A stretch of DNA of 45,920 nucleotides. Origin: a virus. Of this stretch, positions 2,203-37,729 are shown in pieces. Numbering within the stretch: position 1 is the first letter of the stretch; each line of letters opens with the position of its first letter. A program made the translations under genes and the position numbers. The notes under the pieces are model-generated. The model was given only the letters and a program-made list of their open reading frames with translations. It did no database searches and was not told the DNA's origin. The DNA lies in IMG/VR virus record IMGVR_UViG_3300048117_000532, positions 1 to 45,920 of that record; one strand, 5' to 3'.

Positions 2203-5200
2203 ATGGCTAAAAACATTATAATAGTACCACAACCAACAGGTACGACACTTCCTTATATTATTTTTGAGAACACTAATGGTGATACTATTTCATTAAATGT
2301 TCACAATGACGGTCGTCTAACTTTTTCAGGTGCAACACATGGTGATGCTTTAGTTGTTATTGATGAAGATAGGTTAAATGTTAAAGGTTCTATTATCTTA
2401 GGTAATGACGTAGCATTTAATAGTGTTGGTTCTATTACGGACACTGGTGGTTGGAAAGGTAGTACTCAAGGACTAAAAGGTAATCATGGTGTTGACGGTG
2501 ATAAAGGTTTAAAAGGTGTACAGGGACCTGTAGGGCCAACAGCTAATAGAGGTACAAGTGTTGATGGACCACAAGGTGATAAAGGTAGAAAAGGGTTAAA
2601 AGGTCTCAAAGGTAGATTTGGTACTATAGGTACTAGTTGGGCGTTCCAAAATGATGGTGATAAAGGTTTAAAAGGACCACAAGGTCCAACATCCACTGAA
2701 GTGGGTCCGAAAGGTGAAAAAGGTAATCGTGGAGTTCAGGGTGAAGAGGGTATTAAAGGTGCTATTGGAGATAAAGCCAGTCAAGGACCTGTAGGTTTAC
2801 AAGGTTCAAATTCAGATAAAGGTATTGTTGGTGATAAAGGTAATAAGGGTTTAAAAGGACCACAAGGACCTAAAGGTGTCAAAGGTATTGAAGGTGAAAA
2901 AGGTAAAAAAGGTTCTTTAGGACCACAAGGACCAGTTTCACAATCGGGTTCATCTGCGGATAAAGGACTTAAAGGACTTAAAGGTCTTCAAGGAACAAAA
3001 GGTCCGAAAGGTATTCAAGGTACTCAGGGATTACAAGGACCAATAGCAAGTGTTGGTTCACAAGGACCCATAGGACCTAAAGGTCCAACAGGAGAAAAAG
3101 GTATAAAAGGGCTGATAGGTGTTAAAGGTCTTAAGGGTGTGAAAGGTCTTAAGGGTGTGAAGGGACATAAAGGACTTATTGCTGTAAGTGGTGATAATGG
3201 TCAACAAGGTCCAACGGGGGCTCAAGGACCAATAGGTTATAAAGGGGACAAGGGACTTAAAGGTCTTCAAGGAACAAAAGGTCCGAAAGGTATTAAAGGA
3301 CCACAAGCCAGTACAACTACACAAGGACCACAAGGACCACAAGGATTACAAGGAATCACTTCAACAGATAAGGGTATTAAGGGTCAAAAAGGGTTAAAAG
3401 GTGTAAAGGGTTTAAAAGGTTTAAAACCTAATAGAGGTACTCAAGGAGGTATCGGTACACAAGCATCACAAGGACCTACTGGACCAACAGGACCTAAAGG
3501 TGATGATAAAGGTCAGAAAGGTCTAAAAGGTATTAAAGGTCTAAAAGGTAATAGAGGACCACAAGGACCTCAAGGTGCGATTGGTAATCAAGGTAGTATA
3601 GCCTCGACAGGTGACAAAGGTATAAAGGGTGTAGTTGGACCAACACCATTCAAAGGACTTAAAGGTCTTAAGGGTAATAAAGGTTTAAAAGGACCTAAAA
3701 ATTCACAAGGTCCACAAGGTCCAACAGGTAATCAGGCGTCTATAGGTGATAAAGGTAATCGAGGTGCTACTTCAACCGATAAGGGTCTTAAGGGACCTAA
3801 AGGTTTAAAGGGTATTGAAGGACCTAAAGGACCTATTGGGTTACAAGGTCCACAATCAAGTACAGGAACTGTAGGGGAACAGGGACCACAGGGTGACCAA
3901 GGACCACAAGGTCCAACTTCAACTGATAAAGGTATAAAAGGACAAAAAGGTTTAAAGGGTTTAACTGGTGGACGTGGACCACAAGGAAGTGATGGTGTAA
4001 GAGGAGGTAAAGGACCGCAAGGGCCAACAGGTAACAGAGGTAATATTGGTGTATCATCCGACAAAGGTAATAGAGGTCCACAGTCTGAGGAAAAAGGACT
4101 TAAGGGTCCTCAAGGCGATAGAGGTTCACAATCTACTGATAAGGGTCAAAAAGGTCCACAAGGAAGTAGAGGGAGTCAAGCCGCACAAGGACCAACAGGA
4201 CCGGCAAGTACCGATAGAGGTCCGGTTGGTAATAGAGGACAACAAGGAAAACAATCTACTGATAAAGGTCAAAAAGGTCCACAGGGACCACAGGGGGACC
4301 AAGCCGCTGCAGGACCAACGGGTCCACAAGGTCCAACCAATGACACTAAAGGTCATAAAGGGTTAAAGGGTTTAAAAGGAGTTAAAGGTAATAGAGGTAG
4401 TCAAGGTCCAAGAGGACCACAAGGAGCAACATCAACCGTAAAGGGGTATAAAGGTATAACCAGTACTACTAAAGGTATTAAAGGACAGAAAGGTTATAAA
4501 GGACCTAAAGGGCCAAGAGGTTCTGTTGGTAATAGAGGGGCACAAGGTGCGACATCAATAGTAAAAGGGGCGAAAGGACCAAATAATTCTGAAAAAGGGC
4601 TAAAAGGACTAAAAGGTTTAAAAGGGCCAAAGGGTAATAGAGGTAACCAAGGACCACAAGGTGTTAGAGGAGCCAATTCAACGGTTAAAGGGTTTAAAGG
4701 GATAGATAATACAACTAAAGGTCCAAAAGGTTTAAAAGGAGTTAAAGGTAATCGAGGAAATCAGGGGTCGCAAGGACCGCAAGGACCAAGAGGTTCAGCT
4801 TCAACTACACAAGGACCAAAAGGTCCAACTAATAATACTAAAGGTCAAAAAGGTGCAGTTGGTGATTCAGGAATAAAAGGTGATAAAGGTATACGAGGAC
4901 CGCAAGGACCAAGAGGAAATGATTCAACAGTAAAAGGATTAAAAGGACAGCCAAGTACTGAAAAAGGTTTAAAGGGACTTAAAGGGCCAAAAGGGCCGAA
5001 GGGTAATAGAGGTAATCAAGGACCTCAAGGGTCAAGAGGAAATGATTCAACAGTAAAAGGACCAATAGGACCGTCAAGTTCAGAAAGGGGTCTACAGGGT
5101 GTTAAAGGATTAAAAGGGCGAAAAGGGCCAAAGGGACGTAAAGGTATTAAGGGACCACAAGGTTCTCAATCTACAGATAAAGGTCAAAAAGGTTTTATAG

Positions 5201-6180
5201 GTACAGATAAAGGTCTTAAAGGTCTACAAGGTAGTAAAGGACCTAAAGGAAATAGAGGACCACAAGGCTCACAAGGACCAAGAGGTCTACAATCTACAGA
5301 TAAAGGTATAAAAGGTTATAAAGGACCAAGAGGTTCAAATGGACCAACAGGTCCAGGTGGGTCAAATGGGTCAGGTGGTCCAACAGGGCCAACAGGTGGT
5401 GGAGGTTCAAATGGACCAACGGGACCACAAGGACCAGCAGGTACTGAAAAAGGGTTAAAGGGTCTTAAAGGACTAAAAGGCCCTATTGAAAAACAAGGTA
5501 GTCAAGGACCAATAGGTCCGCAAGGTAATACTTCAACAGTAAAAGGACCAACAGGGCCAATTGGTAATGACCTTGGACCAACAGGTCCAACAGGACCACA
5601 AGGTCCGGCAAGTACGGATAAAGGTCCGATAGGACCAAAAGGACCAACATCAACAGTAAAGGGGGTAAAAGGACTAAGAGGGCCAATTGGTAGTACGGGA
5701 CCAAGAGGAGGACAAGGAACAAGTGGACCACAGGGACCGACAGGACCACAAGGACCGGCTGGTAGTGGTGGTGCGACAGGGCCAACTGGTGGACAAGGAC
5801 CTAAAGGTCCAAAAGGACCAAGAGGTTTACAAGGACCACAGGGACTACAAGGTCCAGCATCAGATAAAAGATTAAAAAATAATATTAAATCTTTAAAAGG
5901 TAATCTAAGTAAGTTAAAATTAATTGACGGTGTAAAGTTTACATGGAAAGGTGGGTCAACTAAATTTGAAAATAATTATGGTGAAGATTTTGGATTTATC
6001 GCTCAAGATATTGAAAAAGTTATACCTGAAGTTGTATTTAATAGTGAGAGTGGTTATCTAAAACTTGAGTACGGTAAATTAGTTGCGATTGGTATAGGTT
6101 CTATACAAGAACAAAACACACGTATTGAAAATATAACAGATAGAATTAACATATTAAAATCAAAAATTTTAAATGGGTAG
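2203..6180 (+). CDS. Collagen-like tail fibre 1 with C-terminal S74 chaperone
   Basis: A 1325-residue virion fibre candidate. Residues 1-88 form a beta-rich head ([12 protein letters not shown], then [13 protein letters not shown]) ending in [12 protein letters not shown]. Residues about 90-1219 are Gly-X-Y repeats, mostly GLKG, GPQG, GPKG and GPTG, with regular breaks such as STDKG. From S1220 the sequence SDKRLKNNI begins an intramolecular chaperone of the endosialidase/peptidase S74 family, which folds the trimer and is then usually released by self-cleavage at the Ser-Asp bond. The remaining domain has [13 protein letters not shown] and [15 protein letters not shown], both typical of the family. 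The stop overlaps the next fibre start by eight bases. Lysine dominates the Y position and proline is almost always at X, so the rod should be strongly basic. Confidence 0.93.
2470..5859 (+). repeat. Collagen Gly-X-Y repeat tract of fibre 1
   Basis: Nine-base units built from ggt/gga plus ctaaaa, ccacaa, ccaaca and similar codons recur for about 3.4 kb. At protein level they give Gly every third residue. The phase is broken regularly by four-residue inserts ending in DKG, EKG or VKG. DNA similarity between distant units and with the tracts of fibres 2 and 3 should allow length change by recombination. Confidence 0.95.
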
Positions 6181-9100: not shown

Positions 9101-11494
9101 GGAATTAAAGGTCAAAAAGGTTTTAGAGCCACTGATGGTGATAAAGGTATAAAAGGTCAAAAAGGTTATAAAGGTCCAGATGGTAGTAGAGGTACTACTT
9201 CAACAGTTAAAGGTCTTAAGGGTCAAAAAGGTCTCAAAGGATTAAGAGCAACTGATGGAGTAAAAGGTAGTAAAGGATTAATAGGTATTAAGGGACCAAG
9301 AGGACCACAGGGTGGAAGAGGAACAACAACAGGTACTGGTGGAGAACAAGGACCACAAGGTCCAACAGGTCCGGCAGCATTTAAAGGACTAAAAGGAATA
9401 AAAGGTTATAAAGGACCTAAAGGACCTAAAGGGCCGAAAGGAACACAAAGTACATCTCAAGGACCTACAGGACCTGGAGGAGATAATGGACCAACAGCCT
9501 ATAAAGGACTTAAAGGTCAAAAAGGTATTAAAGGGGCTTATGGACCAAAAGGTCCAATAGGTTCAGCGACAGGAGATGGTGGACCTCAAGGTCCAACAGG
9601 GGATAATGGACCGACAGCATTCAAAGGGTTAAAAGGGTTAAAAGGACATAAAGGGTATAAAGGACCTAAGGGACCACAAGGACCATCAACTGCCGATGGA
9701 GGACCACAAGGTCCAACAGGTCCGGCAGCATTTAAAGGTATTAAAGGTAAAAAAGGGACTAAAGGACCTAAAGGATATAAGGGACCTTTAGGACCACAAG
9801 GAGCGACAACAGGTGTTGCTGGTGATAAAGGACCACGAGGTCCTCAAGGACAGACAGGACCGACAGCATTCAAAGGATTAAAAGGTACAAAAGGTTTAAT
9901 AGGACCTAAAGGACCGACAGGAAATCAAGGAACACAAAGTGGTCCAACAGGTCCAACAGGTGCAGGTGGACCCGCAGCATTCAAAGGGTTAAAAGGGTTA
10001 AAAGGACATAAAGGGTATAAAGGACCTTTAGGACCACAAGGAACTGGTAGTTCAGTTAAAGGTTATAAAGGAGAAAGAGGGCCAAATGGACCGACCGCTC
10101 AAAATGGTGATACAGGTCCAACAGGACTAAAAGGACCAAAAGGTCCACAAGGACCGACAGGTCCTCAAAGTACTTCAAAAGGACCAAAAGGTGCTGTAGG
10201 TATTGGAGGTCCAGCCGCTTTCAAAGGACTAAAAGGTATTACAGGTGAGAAAGGTTTAAAGGGTCAGTTAGGACCTACAGGGCCAGCAAATAGTGATAAA
10301 GGTACTCGTGGTCCACAAGGAACAACTAATACAACTAAAGGACCAAAAGGACCAAAAGGTCCACAAGGTGGTAGAGGTCCACAAGGTGGTAGAGGACTAA
10401 TAGGTACCCAAAGCACATCTCAAGGACCGACAGGACCAATAGGACCATTAGGACCAAAAGGTTTAAAAGGACATAAAGGAATTAAAGGTTACAAGGGCCC
10501 AAGAGGACCTCAAGGGTCGAAAGGGTCACAATCATCTAAAACAGGACCAAGAGGACCACAAGGTCCGAGAGGTAATGCTTCTACAGATAAGGGTCAAACA
10601 GGTATCGCTGGAAATCCCGGACCACAAGGACCAACAGGACCAAAAGGTTATAAAGGTTATAAAGGACCTAAAGGGTATAAAGGTCGACAAGGTGGTAGTG
10701 GTCCACAAGGTCTTCAAGGTCCACAAGGACCAAGAGGCCCACAAGGGTCAGATGGACCAGCAGCGTTATCTGGACCAACAGGACCAAAAGGTTTAAAAGG
10801 TAATAAAGGTATAAAAGGACCCACAGGTGGTGCGTTTTGTTTCGCTCATGACATTGCGGTAAGAGCAGGTGAAGATTGTGCGTATTGTAATGGTAGAAGT
10901 AGCCCATGTGGAGATAAGGTAAATTTGACTGTATATAAAGGTGATATACAACCATTAGCTCAGGGTGATATCCTCTATACTGACCCAGATTGTAAAGATT
11001 GTAGAGAATTTGAGGGATTACCATGTATGAGAAATCTATCTACAGATTTTATAACTATATGGGACGCGGTCAACTTAGGTGGAGTTTTATTTTCATGGGT
11101 AATTACACCACCACCTAAATCAGTAGTAAATGCTTGTGAAATATATGCTTGTGCCGATTGTAGGGCTTCTGATAGTAGACTTAAACATGGTACTAAAACA
11201 TTAAGTGACTCTTTGAATAAGTTACTAAAAATTAATGTTACGGAATATGATTGGAATGAAAATTATACAGGATATGACTTCTTAAAGGAAAGACAAAAAT
11301 TACATTCAATTGGTATGATAGCACAAGAAATAAACTTATTATATCCTGAAGTAGTTTATAGAAGGGATGATGGTTATTTAGCTATTAAGTATTATAAATT
11401 AAATGCATTAATTATTGAAGCGATTAAAAGTCAACAAGTATTTATTGAAGACATAGAGGAACAAATAAACTGGTTAAGAACACAAATAGATTAA
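6173..11494 (+). CDS. Collagen-like tail fibre 2 with globular insert, Cys-rich region and S74 chaperone
   Basis: The largest fibre, 1773 residues. Residues 1-85 are a head like that of fibre 1. A short collagen tract (86-238) leads into a unique globular domain (about 240-598) that opens with [17 protein letters not shown] and later has [13 protein letters not shown], an alternation suggestive of a von Willebrand A-like fold with a degenerate metal site. A long collagen tract follows (599-1553), then a Cys-rich segment of about 110 residues with ten cysteines (1554-1665). The S74 chaperone starts at S1666 (SDSRLKHG) with [15 protein letters not shown]. It starts inside the end of fibre 1 and its stop overlaps fibre 3, so all three should be co-translated. 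The globular insert is the best candidate for a receptor-binding or enzymatic module. Confidence 0.92.
6428..6882 (+). repeat. Collagen Gly-X-Y tract, first block of fibre 2
   Basis: About 50 Gly-X-Y triplets ([11 protein letters not shown] onward) between the N-terminal head and the globular insert, made of the same codon units as fibre 1. Confidence 0.92.
7967..10831 (+). repeat. Collagen Gly-X-Y tract, second block of fibre 2
   Basis: A 2.9-kb run of Gly-X-Y codons. In the 3' half a unit of the form GPx[11 protein letters not shown] recurs, with AFK or AYK occupying a triplet where Gly becomes Ala (GPA-AFK-G). This interruption keeps the three-residue register, unlike the four-residue STDK breaks elsewhere. 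Confidence 0.93.
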
Positions 11495-14400
11495 TGGCTA
11501 ATATTATAATATATCCTACGGGAAGTACATTAAACACCAATCCACATATAATTTTTAGTGGTACAGGTGTTGATTATACTATTGAAATAGATACTACAGG
11601 TGATTTAGTATTTAAGTCTTCTACAAATATTTTTAAAATATCTGATAGTGCTACTCCATTATCATTACCAGGTGAGGTTAATGTTATTAATAGTGAACTT
11701 TATGTTGGTAGTATGATGGTAGTTGACTCTGGAGGTCATTGGGTTGGGCAGACAGAAGGTCTTAAAGGTCAAAAAGGTCTCAAAGGACTACAAGGTGTTG
11801 ACGGTGATAAAGGTTTAAAAGGTAATAAAGGTATTCAGGGAATCGTTGGACCTACAGGTGATAAAGGTGACTTCGGTATCAAAGGTGGTATTGGTTCTGA
11901 CGGAGAAAAAGGAATCAAAGGTGAGCTTTCAGTCAAAGGGGATAAAGGTAACCGAGGACCACAAGGTGAGAAAGGTATTGTTGGACCTAAAGGGTTAAAA
12001 GGGTTAAAGCCGTCAGACTCAACAAAAGGTCTTAAAGGACCAACAGGTCTAAAAGGGTTAACATCTTCAGATAAAGGAACTAAAGGTCCGACAGGTCTTA
12101 AAGGTGTTAAAGGAAATAAGGGTCTAAAACCTGAACAAGGACCAAAAGGTAGTATAGGTGGTGATTCACCTCAAGGGCCAACAGGTTTAAAAGGGCCGAC
12201 ATCATCAGATAAAGGTCAAAAAGGACCAAAAGGTATAAAAGGTGTAAAGGGACAAAAAGGTATTCTTGGAAATCAAGGTCCACAAGGTGATAAAGGTGTT
12301 AGGTCGACAGATGGGGATAATGGACCACAAGGACCAACAGGACCTACCGCTGATAAAGGACCTATTGGTAACAAAGGTATAAAAGGTCTTACAGGACCAC
12401 AAGGTCCGCAAGGTCCTGATGGTATTGTAGGTGTACAAGGACCTGATGGTGATTTAGGACCAAGAGGTCCACAATCTACAGACAAAGGTGATAAAGGTAT
12501 CAAGGGTATTAAAGGTATCAAGGGTATTAAAGGACCTAAACAAGGTAGAGGTGTAATAGGTACACAAGGTGAAAAAGGATTTATCGGACCACAAGGTCCA
12601 ACAGGTCCAGGTGGACCAGCAGCCGTTAAAGGACCAATAGGTCCACAAGGACCGACAGGACCAAAAGGATTTGATGGAGATAGAGGGTTGCAGGGTGATT
12701 CACTAAAAGGACCTACAGGTTCTGGTGGAGATAACGGACCTCAAGGACCGGCAAGTACTGATAAAGGTACGAAAGGGTTAAAGGGATTAATTGGTATCAA
12801 AGGTATTAAAGGATTAATCGGACCACAATCATCAACTAGTTCAGGGTCACAAGGACCTACAGGTCCACAAGGACCAATTGGACCTGCAAGTTCTGACAAA
12901 GGTTTAAAAGGACCAGAAGGTACTAAAGGGTTAAGAGGACCACAAGGGCCTCAGGGACCTCAAGGTAATAATGAAAAGGGACTTATAGGTGATGTTGCCG
13001 TTGGTGGAGATATTGGACCAACAAATACAGATAAAGGACTACAAGGACCTACAGGTGATAAGGGACCTAAAGGTTTTCAAGGACCGAGAGGTACAATTGG
13101 TACTTCACCTAAAGGGGCGAGAGGAACACAAGGACCAACAGGTCCAACAGCTGAAAAAGGTCCGAGTGGTACGTCCACAAATAAAGGTAATAAAGGTATC
13201 AAAGGTATCAAAGGACCGAAAGGTACAGATGGACCGAGAGGAACTATTGGAAATAGTATAACGGGACCAACAGGACCCAACGGACCAACAGGACCTAATA
13301 ATGCCGATAAAGGACTTAAAGGTCCACAAGGACCAACAGGTCCAACTAATACTGATAAAGGAACACAAGGACCAAAAGGTCCTAGAGGTAATCAAGGTGG
13401 ACAAGGACCTCAAGGTCCGACAGGACCAAAGGGAACTACCGGTGGACAAGGACCGACAGGTCCATCAAGTACTGATAAAGGTATTAAAGGGCAAAAAGGT
13501 TATAAAGGTACTAAAGGACCAAATGGCCCCACCGGTCCTACAGGACCAAAAGGTACTAAAAATACCACACAAGGTGATAAGGGACCATCTTCAACAGATA
13601 AAGGTTTAAAAGGTTATAAAGGACCAAAAGGTTTACAGACAGGGAGAGGTACACAAGGGTCACAAGGACCTAAAGCATCTAATGGGGCAACAGGTCCTAC
13701 AGGACCAAAAGGACCTGCAAGTACTGATAGAGGTCCAATAGGACCAAAAGGACCACAAGGTAATGATGGTAACCGAGGTCCCCAAGGTAGTGCGTCAGGT
13801 ACAGGTATTCAAGGACCAACAGGACCCAAAGGACCGGCAGGTAATACTGCAGGACCAAAAGGAGCTATAGGTCCACGACAAAGCCAAGGCTCGCAAGGAC
13901 CACAAGGTTCTAAAGCTAGTCAAGGTACTAATGGACCTACAGGACCACAAGGTCCGGCAAGTACAGATAGAGGTCCACAAGGTAATAAAGGTATTAAAGG
14001 TGATTTAGGACCACAAGGGCCTAAGGCAACACAAGGTTCTGGTGGTGATACAGGTCCACAAGGACCGACAGGTCCATCAAGTACTGATAAAGGTAATAAA
14101 GGTTTAAAAGGTGGTCTTAAATCACAAACATCAGATAAAGGTATTAAGGGTTACAAAGGGCCGAGAGCGGCAACGGGTCAACAAGGTCCACAAGGACCGG
14201 CAAGTTCTGTTAGGGGACCAGAAGGTAATAAGGGTCCAAGAGGGCCTCAGGGTTCACAAGGACCACAAGGACCTAAAGCTAGTCAAGGTCTTAATGGACC
14301 TACAGGACCACAAGGTCCGGCAAGTACGGATAAAGGTAATAAAGGTATTAAAGGTCCGAGAGGTGGACAAGGTCCACAAGGACCTACAGGTTATCAACCT

Positions 14401-15465
14401 GGACAAGGTCCACAAGGACCTAAAGGGGCTGTAGGTGCTGATGGTAATGAGCCAGGACCACGAGGACCCCAAGGACCACGAGGACCGCAAGGGCCTACAG
14501 GTCCACAAGGACCCAAAGCCTCTGGAGGGGCGACAGGTCCGACAGGTAAAGAAGGTCCGGCAAGTTCAGAAAAGGGACCAAGAGGAAATGTAGGTAGTCA
14601 AGGACCAAAAGGACCTAAAGGGTTCAAAGGTGGACAAGGACCCAAAGGACCTAAAGGTCATAAGGGGAATACAGGGGAAAAAGGATTTAAAGGTCCAAAA
14701 GGTTACAAAGGTCCTAGAGGACCGCAAGGACCCCAAGGTTTAAAAGGACCAAGATTATCTCAAGGGTCAGGAGACGTAGGTGATACAGGACCACAAGGAC
14801 CGGCAAGTACTGAAAAAGGTCTTAAAGGACCTAAAGGTCCTAAAGGAGCTAAAGGACCAAAAGGCCTAAAAGGACATAAAGGTTATAAAGGACCTAAAGG
14901 TCCAAAAGGTGTACTTGGTAAAGATGGACCACAAGGTCCGCAAGGTCCAAAAGGACCTACAGGTTCTGGCGGACCAACAGGGCCAGCAGGACAAAAAGGA
15001 CCAAAAGGACTTAAAGGGATTAAAGGTAGAACCGGAGAAAAAGGTTTAAAAGGACGAACTTCAAGTCAAGGCTCACAAGGTATTCAAGGAACTCAAGGAC
15101 CGGCAGGAGCCCAAGGTCCGGCGGGTTCTTTTTCCGATAAAAGATTAAAGGAAAATATTAAAAAAATTGATACACCTTTACAGAAAGTTTTAAATCTACG
15201 TGGTGTTGAATTTATATGGAAAGAAGAAAATCTCGATGGTACCGTTTTACTTGATGGTGGTAGAAAAGATATTGGAGTTATTGCTCAAGAGGTAAAAGAA
15301 GTTTTACCTGAATTAATTGGTGGTTCAGAAGAAAGAGGTTATAAAGTTAGTTATGAACAATTAATCTCAGTATTATTTGAAGCAATTAAGGAACAAGAAT
15401 TAATCTTAAAGGATAAAGATGGTGAACTAACTGAGTTAGAGGGAAAGTTTAAACGTAATCAATAA
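11494..15465 (+). CDS. Collagen-like tail fibre 3 with C-terminal S74 chaperone
   Basis: A 1323-residue paralogue of fibre 1. The head (1-88) contains [19 protein letters not shown] and ends in a [13 protein letters not shown] linker matching that of fibre 1. Residues 89-1210 are Gly-X-Y repeats with frequent ASTDKG and SSDKG breaks. The S74 chaperone begins at S1214 ([11 protein letters not shown]) and includes [14 protein letters not shown] and a C-terminal helix. The Ser-Asp junction used for self-release is intact, as in the other two fibres. The ATG overlaps the stop of fibre 2 by one base (TAATG). The last 17 bases overlap the converging gene at 15449. Three tandem paralogues suggest a bundle of different fibres or alternative receptor specificities. 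Confidence 0.93.
11758..15123 (+). repeat. Collagen Gly-X-Y repeat tract of fibre 3
   Basis: About 3.4 kb of ggt/gga-led nine-base units. [14 protein letters not shown]-like blocks recur many times nearly unchanged at DNA level, giving long direct repeats within the gene. Confidence 0.94.
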
Positions 15466-27253: not shown

Positions 27254-27474
27254 ACAAATTAGTAAATATGTTAAAAACATCTGCACAGGCAGATAAAGCA
27301 AAGGCATTATTATCACTTGAACTACTTGGTAGTAAAGCAGTAGGAATCGGAGACCACTCAACAGGGGACTTCTATAAAAACGCTGAAGAGGCGTTAGTAA
27401 TGTTAGTAGACGCGGACGATAGATTAAGTGCTTTAGATAAGTATTTTGATTCTAATGGAGTAATTATAGGGTAA
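27250..27474 (+). CDS. Small helical protein, 74 aa
   Basis: The sequence DKAKALLSLELLGSKAVGI, then GDHSTGDFYKNAEEALVML, then DADDRLSALDKYF predicts three helices. I recall similar short proteins in T4-like marine phages but cannot name a family. It is coupled to the Nudix gene (ATGA) and is the last gene before the large non-coding region. Confidence 0.68.
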   Translation: MNKLVNMLKTSAQADKAKALLSLELLGSKAVGIGDHSTGDFYKNAEEALVMLVDADDRLSALDKYFDSNGVIIG

Positions 27475-27520
27475 ATATCCAATAATTTTAATACAAAACA
27501 CAAAAAAACCCTTAAAGGGC

Positions 27521-27550
27521 TTGTCTGAGAGTAATTTTTTTGTATATTTG
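27521..27550 (+). promoter_or_regulatory. Bacteroidota-type promoter P1 upstream of the large RNA
   Basis: TTG at 27521-27523, 19 bases, then TATATTTG at 27543-27550. This fits the Bacteroidota sigma-A consensus. Transcription would start near 27556 and run into the structured RNA. Confidence 0.65.
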
Positions 27551-27621
27551 TATAACTTTTGAGATTTATTGGAGTATTTATATCTTACCCAACAGAAAAT
27601 CAGAAAGTTTTTAAAAAAAAG

Positions 27622-27653
27622 TTTGACAGATTAAAAAATTTGTTGTAGTTTTG
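27622..27653 (+). promoter_or_regulatory. Bacteroidota-type promoter P2 of the large RNA
   Basis: TTTG at 27622-27625 (within GTTTGACA), exactly 20 bases, then TAGTTTTG at 27646-27653: a full match to TTTG-N20-TAnnTTTG. Expected start near 27658-27660, just before the first hairpin of the RNA. It is among the strongest promoters in the window. Confidence 0.75.
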
Positions 27654-27657
27654 TAAA

Positions 27658-28572
27658 ACAATTCAGTAAGAGTACTGAAGACGTTCTTTGAAAATATTAG
27701 TAAGTGTCACCTTAACCATCACAGTTTGTGAAAGGAATACAAAAGATTAACCCCTTTTTCTTAAACGGTTAAGTATGACATTTGACGGCGGTTTAGCGTC
27801 GTTAGATAACCCCAGCAATGGGACTAAAGGGATTGAAACGAGAATAGTACATCGTGAATATTCGCAGAGTTTACTCTGACAACTAAACAAAGTGGCTACG
27901 GTCAAGACCCTAAGGGCAACTGCTAAAGGGACGAGACCACTCTGAGTCCGTGGAATATCAGAGTTGAGATAGTGATATCAATAGGAAAAGCTACAGGTGA
28001 CGGTTCGACACACCCTGTCAGGTGTTGTAGGGCTGAGTACCAGTACAAAGGAATTCCGATACGATAAGTTAACGTATTCCTGAAGTACCGTAAGTTGACA
28101 GACTTACAGAGAGGTGTGAAGCATTTTGTTTTCAAAAGAAACGAAACTTCTCCCGAAGCACATCTTTCTCATTTCCATCGTTACTTTTACTAAAACTAAA
28201 AGAGAGCAAAAGTTCTTCGGGCGTTGACAACGAAAGGTGTCTAACACTTCGAGTCAATAGACTAACGAAGTCATCGGTAGACCGCAAGTCTCCTGATGTC
28301 AATTATCAAATACCTGGTGGGATGGCCGTCCCTTAGTGAACTCGCAAGGTTTGACAGAGTAAAGTAGTAGTTGAGTAGTTGTTAACGAAAAGAGTGGTTC
28401 ACTCAAATAACCGACACTGACTTGATACTTTCGGCAACGAGAGTGGATACATGAGCAACCGATATAGGGTAATCTCACTAAAGACAAGTCACCATAAACG
28501 TGTAATCTCAGCGTTCTATACTCTATTATATATCTTCCTTAACCTCAGTTCTAACCGACTGAGGTTTTTTTT
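27658..28572 (+). ncRNA. Large structured non-coding RNA, about 0.9 kb (GOLLD/ROOL-like candidate)
   Basis: No forward protein frame crosses this stretch. It is bounded by a consensus promoter and an intrinsic terminator, and is less AT-rich than its surroundings. Many local helices can be read: 27662-27667/27674-27679; 27865-27869/27874-27878 (loop TTTA); 27939-27945/27958-27964; 27991-27995/28026-28030 enclosing 27996-27999/28011-28014; 28059-28063/28073-28077; 28090-28094/28103-28107; 28152-28158/28215-28221; 28319-28322/28329-28332; 28392-28396/28400-28404; and 28426-28433/28438-28445 capped by a GCAA tetraloop. Nested long helices, a GNRA loop and A-rich joints are typical of the giant ornate RNAs (GOLLD, ROOL) of phages and prophages. 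Family membership is not proven; it may be a new class. Confidence 0.82.
28543..28572 (+). terminator. Intrinsic terminator of the large RNA
   Basis: CCTCAGT, eight-base loop, ACTGAGG, then eight T. A perfect seven-base-pair stem that defines the 3' end of the RNA. Confidence 0.9.
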
Positions 28573-28583
28573 ATGCTCAATAA

Positions 28584-28615
28584 TTTGTGTAAGTGAATAT
28601 TATTCACTATATTTG
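28584..28615 (+). promoter_or_regulatory. Bacteroidota-type promoter for the small-gene cluster
   Basis: TTTG at 28584-28587, 20 bases, TATATTTG at 28608-28615, followed by the ATG at 28637. A consensus host-type promoter, probably active early in infection. Confidence 0.75.
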
Positions 28616-28636
28616 TATAAATAAAAAAATAAAATT

Positions 28637-28867
28637 ATGGAAGGAATTATCACATTAGTCATTATCGGTTTCGTTTTAACATTTGGTTCACAATTACTAA
28701 AAGGTATTGGAAATATCTTTGCCGCGTCAGGTAGGGTTGGCGGTTGGATAGTTGGAATTATCTTAGTTGTGTTCTTATTAAAAACATTAGTTTTTAGTTC
28801 AACACCCGAATCTGTAACTCCACCAAATAATACGGAAATGAAAACATTAACTAACGAAGACTTTTAA
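28637..28867 (+). CDS. Small membrane protein, 76 aa
   Basis: Two hydrophobic segments are clear, residues 3-22 (GIITLVIIGFVLTFGSQLL) and about 38-53 (GWIVGIILVVFLLKTLV), with a Gly/Ala-rich turn between them and a polar acidic tail of about 20 residues. The role is unknown. Early-type expression from its own host-like promoter and location in the inner membrane would suit superinfection exclusion, a defence-related function or lysis control, but none is shown by sequence. Confidence 0.68.
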   Translation: MEGIITLVIIGFVLTFGSQLLKGIGNIFAASGRVGGWIVGIILVVFLLKTLVFSSTPESVTPPNNTEMKTLTNEDF

Positions 28868-31388: not shown

Positions 31389-32447
31389 ATGAATAGTATT
31401 GATAAACAATATAACGAATTACTATCTACTATTTTAGAACATGGTGTAGATAAATCAGATAGGACTGGTACGGGTACTAAGTCTATTTTTGGTTATACTA
31501 TAAGACATAATATGAAAGAAGGGTTTCCTCTTCTTACCACAAAGAAGATGGCAGTCAAAACAATGATGACTGAATTGAAGTGGTTCTTAAAAGGAGATAC
31601 CAACATCAAGTACTTGGTGGACAACGGATGTAACATTTGGAATGGTGATGCTTTCAAAAACTATATTAGTAAAACTAATGAGTATAAAGGTAATTGGCCT
31701 GATACTATGGATGAGTTTATTGAACGAATCAAAACCGATGATGAATTTGCAAAGACATGGGGTGAGTTAGGTCCTGTATATGGTGCTCAGTGGAGAGGAT
31801 GGTTTCAAGAAGGTGAGCAAGTATTTGAAGGGGATACGTTACAAGTTTATAACGAAAAAAGTGTTGACCAAATTAAAAATTTACTTGAACAACTTAAAAG
31901 GAATCCAGACTCAAGAAGGTTAATGGTTAGTGCTTGGAATGTTGGGGAGTTAGATTTAATGACTTTACCTCCATGTCATTATGGGTTTCAAATATACACT
32001 AGATTATTAACTGATAAAGAGAGATATGAATACTGGTTCAAAAATAATTATGAGACAGGTATGGAAAGATATTTCGACCCTAAAAACCTACCTGATTTTG
32101 ATGATAAAAGACACGAACCAACACCAAAGAGAGCTATATCATTAATGTGGAACCAAAGGTCTGTAGACACATTCTTAGGGTTACCATTTAACATTTCTTC
32201 ATATGCTACTTTACTTATGTTAATTGCAAAAGAGGTACATATGATACCAGACCAATTAATAGGTAATTTAGGTGATGTCCATTTATATCAAAATCATTTA
32301 AATCAGGCTAAAGAACAGATTAAGAGAGAAGGTTACGATTTACCACATATTAACTTTAAAGGTGTTAATTTATTAGGTGGTGAATTCAACTATGAATTAA
32401 TAAATTATAATTATAAACCAACTATTAAAGCTCCATTAAGTAATTAA
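31389..32447 (+). CDS. thyA: Thymidylate synthase (ThyA type)
   Basis: A 352-residue enzyme that methylates dUMP to dTMP with methylene-tetrahydrofolate, releasing dihydrofolate. RTGTGTKSIFGYTIRHN gives the phosphate-binding N-terminus, PLLTTKKM follows, the catalytic Cys is C196 in LPPCHYGFQ, and FNISSYATLL with GDVHLYQNHL completes the conserved C-terminal part. It is longer than the 264-286 residues of E. coli and T4 enzymes because of inserts around residues 90-150 and 205-240. The frame is continuous, with no intron as in T4 td. DHFR and SHMT genes lie 8-10 kb downstream, together forming the dTMP cycle. Confidence 0.95.
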   Translation: MNSIDKQYNELLSTILEHGVDKSDRTGTGTKSIFGYTIRHNMKEGFPLLTTKKMAVKTMMTELKWFLKGDTNIKYLVDNGCNIWNGDAFKNYISKTNEYKGNWPDTMDEFIERIKTDDEFAKTWGELGPVYGAQWRGWFQEGEQVFEGDTLQVYNEKSVDQIKNLLEQLKRNPDSRRLMVSAWNVGELDLMTLPPCHYGFQIYTRLLTDKERYEYWFKNNYETGMERYFDPKNLPDFDDKRHEPTPKRAISLMWNQRSVDTFLGLPFNISSYATLLMLIAKEVHMIPDQLIGNLGDVHLYQNHLNQAKEQIKREGYDLPHINFKGVNLLGGEFNYELINYNYKPTIKAPLSN

Positions 32448-36115: not shown

Positions 36116-37729
36116 ATGAAAAAACAAAACAAATTTAAAGAATTACTTGTTGATAAACCTGATATTGTAATAATAATAACAGACCAAGAGAGAGCCACTC
36201 AGTACTTTCCTGAAGGATGGGAACAAGAAAATCTACCAACACTAACTAAATTAAAAGATAATGGTTTCACATTTGATAAAGCCTTCTGTAATAGTTGTAT
36301 GTGTACACCGAGTAGAGCTACTTTATTTACTGGTACGTACCCATCACAACATCAATGTACTGAAACCTTAACAACAGGTGGTATATACTCACCTGGTGAA
36401 ATACAATTAAATAATAAAAGTAATAACATTGGTAAGATGTTAGATAGTATCGGTTACGATGTACAATACAGAGGTAAATGGCATTTAAGTAAAGGTGCTG
36501 ATGGTGGTGACCCATTAGCTAAAGAAATATCACTTTATGGGTTTAAAGGTTGGGTTGGACCTGATGCGGGTGAAGATGCGAAACCTGAAAACTTTGGTGG
36601 GGGTTATCCAAATGCTGATGCAAGGTATGTGAAAGAAGGTATAGAGTATTTAGAACAGGTAAGAATCAGTAGACAAAAGGGTGAACCAAGAAAACCTTAT
36701 TGTTTAGTATTAAGTTTAGTAAATCCTCATGATGTGTTAGGTTATCCAAAGTCAGTACAATTTGGTTATACTCCCGATGAATATACTGGTAGAACTATTA
36801 CCGACTTACCACCTACAGTTACGGAACAATTACTTAAAAATGGTAAACCTATGGCTCAATTACAAACAAACATTGCTGCTGATGGTTTATTAGGTGTCTT
36901 ACGAAATGATGATATGAAATTGAATTACTTAAATTTTTACGCATACCTACTAACTAAGATTGATGGTGAAATTGGTAAATTTATTGATGTACTTTATGAT
37001 GATACCAAAGGTAGTAGACTCGCTGATGATGCGGTGGTTATAAGATTGGCGGACCACGGAGAGATGGGGATGTCACATGGTGGTATGAGACAAAAGGCTT
37101 TTGTTGCTTATGAAGAGGCGTTAAGAATACCTATGGTGATATCAAACCCTATTGTGTTTAACAAAAAAGAATCGTCAGATGAATTAGCAACACTTATTGA
37201 TATATTCCCAACGATATCTGAGATTGTTGGTGTACCTAAAGACAGTAACTCAAGAGGTGAGAGTTTAATACCAATAATTGAGGAAGGTAAATCAGTTCAA
37301 GATTCTATATTATTTACTTTTGATGATACTAAGTCGGGTTCGAATAATTTACCATCTTCTGTTAAAGCAACTAATAGATTAAGGGCAATCCGTACACATG
37401 ATTGGAAGTACACATATTATTTCGATTCATTAGGTAGATATCAAAAAGAATATGAGTTATACGACTTAGTTAACGATATTGAGGAATCACATAATTTAGC
37501 TTATAAACCTGAATATAGAGAACAAAGGGAATACTTACATCAACAGTTGATGGAATTAGAAGAAAGAAAATTAAGAGTTAATGAGATATTTGTTAATAAA
37601 AATAACCAATATGAATATAAAACTTGGGTTGAAACAAATCCTAATTTTGAGACTTATGCTTACAATGATATAGAGGGTTATGAGAAGGAGAATTTTGATA
37701 TAAACGAAAAAAAGAATACGGAAAAATAG
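36116..37729 (+). CDS. Sulfatase (formylglycine-dependent, type I)
   Basis: A 537-residue, apparently full-length alkaline-phosphatase-superfamily sulfatase. Metal ligands D23-Q24 occur in IIITDQ; the active-site motif is C63-T-P-S-R67 followed by ATLFTGTYP; GKWHLSKG supplies catalytic Lys and His; LADHGEMGMSHGG gives the second metal pair. Cys63 must be oxidised to formylglycine by a host enzyme, because no maturase gene is visible here. The D-Q pair resembles choline-sulfatase and phosphonate-monoesterase types more than D-D enzymes. There is no signal peptide, so it would act in the cytoplasm, after lysis, or in the virion. The next genes are a membrane peptide and a GH-B-like lipoprotein. 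Confidence 0.92.
   Translation: MKKQNKFKELLVDKPDIVIIITDQERATQYFPEGWEQENLPTLTKLKDNGFTFDKAFCNSCMCTPSRATLFTGTYPSQHQCTETLTTGGIYSPGEIQLNNKSNNIGKMLDSIGYDVQYRGKWHLSKGADGGDPLAKEISLYGFKGWVGPDAGEDAKPENFGGGYPNADARYVKEGIEYLEQVRISRQKGEPRKPYCLVLSLVNPHDVLGYPKSVQFGYTPDEYTGRTITDLPPTVTEQLLKNGKPMAQLQTNIAADGLLGVLRNDDMKLNYLNFYAYLLTKIDGEIGKFIDVLYDDTKGSRLADDAVVIRLADHGEMGMSHGGMRQKAFVAYEEALRIPMVISNPIVFNKKESSDELATLIDIFPTISEIVGVPKDSNSRGESLIPIIEEGKSVQDSILFTFDDTKSGSNNLPSSVKATNRLRAIRTHDWKYTYYFDSLGRYQKEYELYDLVNDIEESHNLAYKPEYREQREYLHQQLMELEERKLRVNEIFVNKNNQYEYKTWVETNPNFETYAYNDIEGYEKENFDINEKKNTEK

Follow-up and report, generated by a model that had tools for sequence, protein, structure and literature searches.

A stretch of about 0.9 kb in this viral sequence poses a simple question: is it a gene for a giant structured RNA and, if so, to which family does it belong? 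The window, by which we mean the whole stretch of DNA analysed, is an entire IMG/VR virus record of 45,920 bases in which endolysin and tail-fibre-like genes are present. The first-pass annotation, made from the letters, saw no forward protein frame here, and indeed no forward ORF in the interval 27474–28637 reaches 60 aa. The minus strand has two ORFs there that start with TTG, 62 and 70 aa long. A conserved protein in homologues had been named as evidence against an RNA; across 29 relatives the longest run of codons without a stop ranges, per strand, from 44 to 111, so no such protein is indicated.

The covariance-model search that the annotation had proposed was run with Rfam release 15. 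RF02032 (GOLLD) matches window positions 28109–28514 over model positions 1–416 of 416, with 293.2 bits against a cut-off of 150. It is the sole Rfam family at curated score across the whole 45,920-base window. ROOL gave no match at the gathering score in the whole window, or at E values up to 10 in 27450–28700. GOLLD had been the best guess from length and style, and the full-length match to a curated model at nearly twice its cut-off, with ROOL unmatched, confirms it. Another option raised, a new family, is set aside by this match and by a 5′ half that is collinear with other GOLLDs. The RNA in the window is GOLLD. The gene is complete, about 900 nt long, and has its own promoters, boxA-like leader and terminator (Table 1). 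GOLLD is a giant non-coding RNA that builds hollow cages, and the solved env-38 structure is a 14-mer (PMC12286853; papers are cited by PMC number for the excerpts available of each).

Table 1. Features of the GOLLD gene in the window, in order of position.
Feature	Position	Strand	Remarks
Upstream tandem promoter, TTG ... TATATTTG	27521–27550	+	
Main promoter, Bacteroidota type, TTTG-N20-TAGTTTTG	27622–27653	+	
Short leader hairpin, 7 pairs	27662–27679	+	in the promoter–boxA interval; boxB-like by position only
boxA-like rRNA antitermination element, GTTCTTTGAAA	27683–27693	+	between promoter and RNA body
Variable leader, boxA to structured body	27694–27785	+	from alignment; largely missing in some relatives
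GOLLD 5′ domain (cap in the solved cage)	27786–28108	+	16 predicted helices, outside the Rfam model
GNRA-capped hairpin, 5′ domain	27811–27822	+	GCAA in the window; GTAA, GTGA, GCGA in relatives
Kissing loop, span	28015–28101	+	28015–28019 (CUGUC) with 28097–28101 (GACAG)
GOLLD 3′ domain, RF02032 model 1–416	28109–28514	+	Rfam match; 102 predicted pairs
AU-rich variable linker	28165–28205	+	approximate ends, from alignments
Self-complementary loop GGCC	28324–28327	+	mapped to bridge B8 (inter-chain kissing loop L21a)
Tertiary pairing, span	28446–28507	+	28446–28448 with 28505–28507, from covariation ranking
Intrinsic terminator and T run	28541–28572	+	stem 28541–28566; letters differ in relatives, structure kept

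Relatives were collected with sequence patterns. The core pattern found 48 stretches in IMG/VR and two further patterns added more; the resulting set of loci is a sample. The first pattern scan was too loose and its matches were mostly due to chance; only those confirmed by blastn or by a profile were kept. Forty-nine pattern matches in bacterial genomes, none of them matched by blastn or the two profiles, were dropped as GOLLD, as were two loci (L144 and L152) that matched the core pattern and no profile. GOLLD is present in at least 181 of the 386 loci examined, in at least 82 clusters at 95%. Loci with the 5′ (27786–28108) and 3′ profiles in register were called type A; there are at least 68, at least 67 of which have the full-length 5′ part, and they form at least 29 clusters at 97%. 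Type B comprises loci with only the 3′ part above threshold (at least 60, minus L151, L155 and L243, which are type A loci truncated by the DNA end). Six relatives are identical to the window across 1,041 bases, and the most distant type A 5′ domain has 61% identity.

The structure of the 3′ domain is strongly supported by these relatives. Over 28 distinct rows its 102 pairs are 97.7% paired, with 59 showing changes on both sides; none of 500 shuffles reached the real alignment by any measure, and slid controls fell far below the real pairing. Two helices that had been read by eye are borne out. The eight-pair hairpin with a GCAA loop (28426–28445) has both-sided changes in six of its eight pairs, and the long-range CCCGAAG/CTTCGGG helix (28152–28158 with 28215–28221) in four of seven. 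The linker has as its counterpart a disordered loop inside the solved GOLLD cage (PMC12286853). Two contacts of that cage, L21a and L27-J24/26, were located by our own mapping to its numbering. The GGCC loop is placed by this mapping at the L21a inter-chain contact; the core GC at the site is invariant in 29 of 29 sequences, and GC/CG switching at the symmetric inter-chain contact B8 is described in the excerpts of PMC12286853. The pairing of 28446–28448 with 28505–28507, which is 100% paired and has one pair with both-sided change, would fit the L27-J24/26 contact.

The half of the RNA that lies outside the Rfam model is a real second domain. In the 29-cluster type A alignment it has 76 pairs in 16 helices, with 98.8% of cells paired. 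Both-sided changes occur in 43 of the 76 pairs and in 312 cells, against 88 in shuffles; none of 500 shuffles reached any measure, and slid partners were only 33–43% paired. These controls are lenient, since the structures were predicted from the same alignments and the shuffles ignore relatedness. In a covariation ranking of all column pairs, the consensus structure (predicted from the same alignments) accounts for 18 of the first 20 and 31 of the first 50. The kissing loop, which is outside the consensus structure, surfaced from this ranking. It is 97.9% paired with both-sided change in three of five pairs, and the variants in relatives are CCGCC/GGCGG, CUGCC/GGCAG and CUGCA/UGCAG. Its cell counts and score exceed all shuffles; its counts of pairs and pair types do not. 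A lack of covariation in homologues had also been named as evidence against an RNA, and strong covariation was found in both domains. Columns 27952 (5′ domain) and 28176 (linker region within the 3′ domain) covary as well (G-C, A-U, U-A); this could be an inter-domain contact or chance.

The type A 5′ profile also finds a match of at least 7 bits upstream of 29 of 49 type B 3′ domains, at one collinear place. A reversed set and five dinucleotide-shuffled sets gave no 5′ profile match, even at 3 bits. Judged from these profile matches, the 5′ half in the window is a distant homologue of the 5′ half that other phage GOLLDs carry. The matches stop near position 207 of 327, and the last third of the domain (from about 27990) therefore looks clade-specific. 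A less conserved 5′ half is also reported for GOLLD in PMC12286853, with which our comparison of types A and B agrees.

Both promoters called in the first pass stand. The one at 27622–27653 was typed by what we take to be the Bacteroidota promoter consensus. Taken by itself, the promoter pattern occurs in the window no more often than chance predicts (2 found, 2.28 expected). Among relatives, 26 of 29 type A clusters have a TTG-N18-24-TAnnTTTG promoter no more than 330 nt before the 5′ domain, and 14 of 29, the window included, have two in tandem. The terminator had been described as having seven pairs. Its stem and T run are present and kept in relatives; our scan gave ten pairs instead of seven.

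Between the promoter and the RNA body, about 30 nt past the promoter, lies GTTCTTTGAAA. We take this element to be like the boxA of other bacteria; it is absent from the first-pass annotation and is new. There is one exact copy in the window, and with up to one mismatch there are three against 2.25 expected, so the window alone is no proof of a boxA. The relatives are more telling. The leader has a motif of the class G[CT]TCTTT[AG]A in 25 of the 29 type A clusters and in 44 of the 49 of type B, against an expectation per interval in the same loci of 0.012 and 0.018, respectively. The class is absent from four type A clusters and from five type B clusters, the latter including the 642-kb phage, and from 3-kb stretches with four Acinetobacter-phage GOLLDs, whose transcription units may start further upstream. 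In an unguided count GTTCTTTGA was the top shared 9-mer, present in 62 of 78 independent GOLLD leaders against 0.43 expected. Of the exact 11-mer, 116 copies lie in the 1.2 kb that precede the 3′ domain and 11 elsewhere (181 sampled loci, near-identical ones included), and none of those 11 other sites is beside another tRNA or tmRNA gene.

The same class was found in 9 of 14 Bacteroidota 16S leaders from 12 genomes. The chance value is about 0.08 per leader, from 26 matches in 136,854 bases of the same loci on both strands; leaders with at least 300 bases present were counted, and two loci with fewer than 40 bases were left out. The other five leaders have only forms with one or two mismatches. 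The motif letters stand 85–220 nt before the 16S start. In E. coli, boxA is reported to be both required and sufficient for the rrn complex, which may help folding (PMC10250234). SuhB is recruited by boxA also outside rRNA, and what Nus factors chiefly serve at rRNA is argued to be maturation and not antitermination (PMC4807359); in that light the benefit here could be either one. The leader hairpin is suggestive of a boxB. Leader stems of at least five pairs occur in 34 of 44 type B leaders (shuffled mean 14.7, maximum 21) and in 20 of 25 type A leaders (mean 14.5, maximum 19), and since the type A count is hardly above the shuffles the boxB-like reading is weak for the clade of the window.

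The window has no tRNA gene in its 45,920 bases. Across the family, a tRNA is close by (up to 900 nt ahead of the 3′ domain or up to 300 nt behind it) in 18 of at least 82 GOLLD clusters. A tRNA-Met (CAT) is present in 17 of these 18, always on the same strand, and lies 11–46 nt after the RNA or 420–615 nt before the 3′ domain. Twelve of the 17 have an initiator-like anticodon arm, GGCTCATAACC, mostly with an unpaired 1:72 (tally from the locus listing). Such an arm and an unpaired 1:72 are typical of initiator tRNAs. The remaining near genes are two non-Met tRNAs and one opposite-strand tmRNA. Farther off in the same loci, 2 of 134 tRNA or tmRNA genes are tRNA-Met with an unpaired 1:72, and 11 more are other tRNA-Met. 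The carriers of tRNA-Met include L138, L143, L029, L265, L276 and L302, the first three being relatives of the window. An association of GOLLD with tRNAs is in general already known. The env-38 GOLLD lies downstream of a Met-tRNA (PMC12286853), and a mycobacterial GOLLD lies inside a cluster of 32 tRNAs (PMC6582537). We also found unannotated GOLLD-like RNAs (L423–L426) in tRNA arrays of the Acinetobacter phages Bestia, vB_AciJM_313, YMC13/03/R2096 and AM24; in three of these phages, about 10 nt separate the 3′ end of the RNA from a tRNA-Asp gene. Given these arrays and the mycobacterial cluster, the tRNA-Met rule is not a general one.

The window is most likely a fragment of a large phage, as the kinship of its endolysin-like protein suggests. 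This protein has an identical copy in a 198.8-kb contig, and its N-terminal pieces have 47–51% identity in the huge phages LR745206.1 and LR756502.1. Each of 11 long contigs of 119–304 kb (picked as GOLLD carriers) has a single GOLLD, as do two of three huge-phage records. In LR745206.1 (634,780 bases) it lies at 420875–421280 (L333; 287 bits), with an initiator-like tRNA-Met upstream and a boxA. In LR756502.1 (642,428 bases) it lies at 434685–435091 (L334; 275 bits), without tRNA-Met and without boxA. A 735-kb phage record gave no GOLLD under stricter filters. The first-pass annotation had spoken of a Bacteroidota-phage RNA. The promoter type speaks for a Bacteroidota-type host, as does the boxA-like element known from 16S leaders of Bacteroidota; on the other side, GOLLD was found in 0 of 148 Bacteroidota genomes sampled, and likewise in 0 of 299 Bacilli genomes, counts that are not proof of absence because the filters were strict and no control was matched. 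The serine hydroxymethyltransferase was uninformative as to host (56–57% to three genomes of three phyla). Subscription papers and supplements lay outside our literature search, in which we found no paper on GOLLD together with boxA or with initiator tRNA and, among the matches listed, none on GOLLD RNA in Bacteroidota and no mention of GOLLD in those on crAss, Flavobacter and viral metagenomes or on huge, jumbo and megaphages.

Other genes of the window deserve a remark. A sulfatase at 36116–37729 (Pfam Sulfatase and SGSH C-terminal domain, CTPSR motif) is unusual phage cargo; none of its matches in phage records reaches 60% identity, and the ten listed have 21–25%. Two collagen-repeat proteins of 1,325 and 1,323 aa (2203–6180 and 11494–15465) carry a C-terminal Peptidase_S74 chaperone domain and are likely tail fibres. 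The thymidylate synthase at 31389–32447 (352 aa) carries an insertion, as 346 of its residues span a 265-position profile.

How else could the locus be read? It might represent a new giant RNA family, as the 5′ half lies beyond the Rfam model and INPHARED phages gave no blastn match to the window RNA. The full-length RF02032 match refutes this, as does the 5′ half that is collinear in 29 of 49 type B loci and in none of the controls, and we give the idea next to no credence. An ordinary protein-coding or intergenic stretch with chance helices has the two minus-strand ORFs in its favour; its probability is negligible given covariation far above the shuffled and slid controls and stop-free stretches that vary among relatives. 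The GOLLD here could also be a drift relic without a working transcript or cage. GOLLD is reported as dispensable for phage production in one Lactobacillus brevis prophage (PMC7567579), which would suit a relic. Yet down to relatives whose 5′ domains are only about 61% identical, the promoter, boxA, both domains, the kissing contacts and the terminator have been preserved through compensatory changes, and we consider a relic very improbable.

A further alternative concerns the leader, in that GTTCTTTGAAA may be a structural, processing or start-site element that merely resembles boxA. It lies near the 5′ end of the RNA, where a processing or pairing site is possible. Against this stand its conservation as an island amid a variable leader, the rank of GTTCTTTGA as the most shared 9-mer across two divergent 5′-domain groups, and the identical letters at their place before the 16S gene in Bacteroidota. 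Its fixed letters also give no sign of a covarying helix. We regard this alternative as unlikely, though worth keeping in mind.

The order of promoter, boxA-like element, RNA and terminator recurs among relatives, around a GOLLD with two covarying domains and a kissing loop. We think it likely that the locus as a whole is a GOLLD gene with host rRNA-type boxA transcription and a two-domain product that assembles itself into a cage. Host RNA polymerase would start near 27660, and the boxA-like element would be read within the first 35 nt of the transcript. By analogy with rRNA operons, we infer that this element functions as a boxA and binds NusB, so that the polymerase would acquire the host NusB/NusE(S10) antitermination complex. 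The complex would let the polymerase cross the long untranslated structured RNA without early termination, and it could help co-transcriptional folding, as proposed for rRNA. The expressed RNA would then fold into two domains, a cap (5′) and a ring (3′), and most likely form a homo-oligomeric cage. The oligomer state could be altered by the last third of the 5′ domain, which is divergent.

A role of the cage in translation is suggested by the tie to tRNA-Met in some relatives and by the ribosome binding of GOLLD cited in PMC12286853. A bolder proposal is that GOLLD is both built and used like rRNA. The promoter–boxA leader would hijack the host rRNA transcription and folding machinery and mass-produce the cage, with a same-strand initiator-like tRNA-Met as its recurrent partner, and at takeover the cage would act on translation initiation, for instance as a holder or supplier of initiator tRNA or small ribosomal subunits. 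We put this forward as a long shot.

Among the closest known systems is GOLLD env-38 (PMC12286853). It shares with the window RNA the full-length 3′ domain, the two-domain layout, the variable linker and the setting in a phage genome, as well as the self-complementary loop placed at L21a and the pairing that would fit L27-J24/26. The 5′ domain in the window is divergent, and its last third is not recognisably shared with the type B group. The window also has the boxA-like leader and tandem Bacteroidota-type promoters, and it has no tRNA; neither leader nor promoters of this kind are mentioned in the available excerpts of PMC12286853. A bacterial rRNA operon leader (promoter, boxB, boxA, boxC) is similar in that a boxA follows the promoter at about 30 nt and precedes a long RNA that is structured and untranslated, and, for some GOLLD relatives, in an accompanying tRNA. 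Here the product is a phage GOLLD RNA and the boxB-like hairpin is suggestive; the comparison covers promoter, boxB and boxA. ROOL is likewise a giant, cage-forming RNA of phages and prophages that is often near tRNAs (PMC12286853), whereas the window RNA has no Rfam ROOL match. The most abundant non-coding transcript of ICP1, of about 800 nt, is also a large orf-less phage RNA and lies beside the lysis cluster; in the available excerpt its authors liken it to GOLLD and ROOL by its length (PMC7567579).

For the half of the RNA outside the Rfam model, the alignment of 29 sequences provides a covariation-backed fold. The boxA-like leader, present in 69 of 78 independent GOLLD leaders, would tie the production of GOLLD to the rRNA transcription machinery; high output is thereby predicted, and host factors are named for testing. 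It suggests a way by which a phage could transcribe 0.9 kb of structured, untranslated RNA and avoid stopping early. In some relatives the link to tRNA-Met is a lead to translation, where the cage may have its role.
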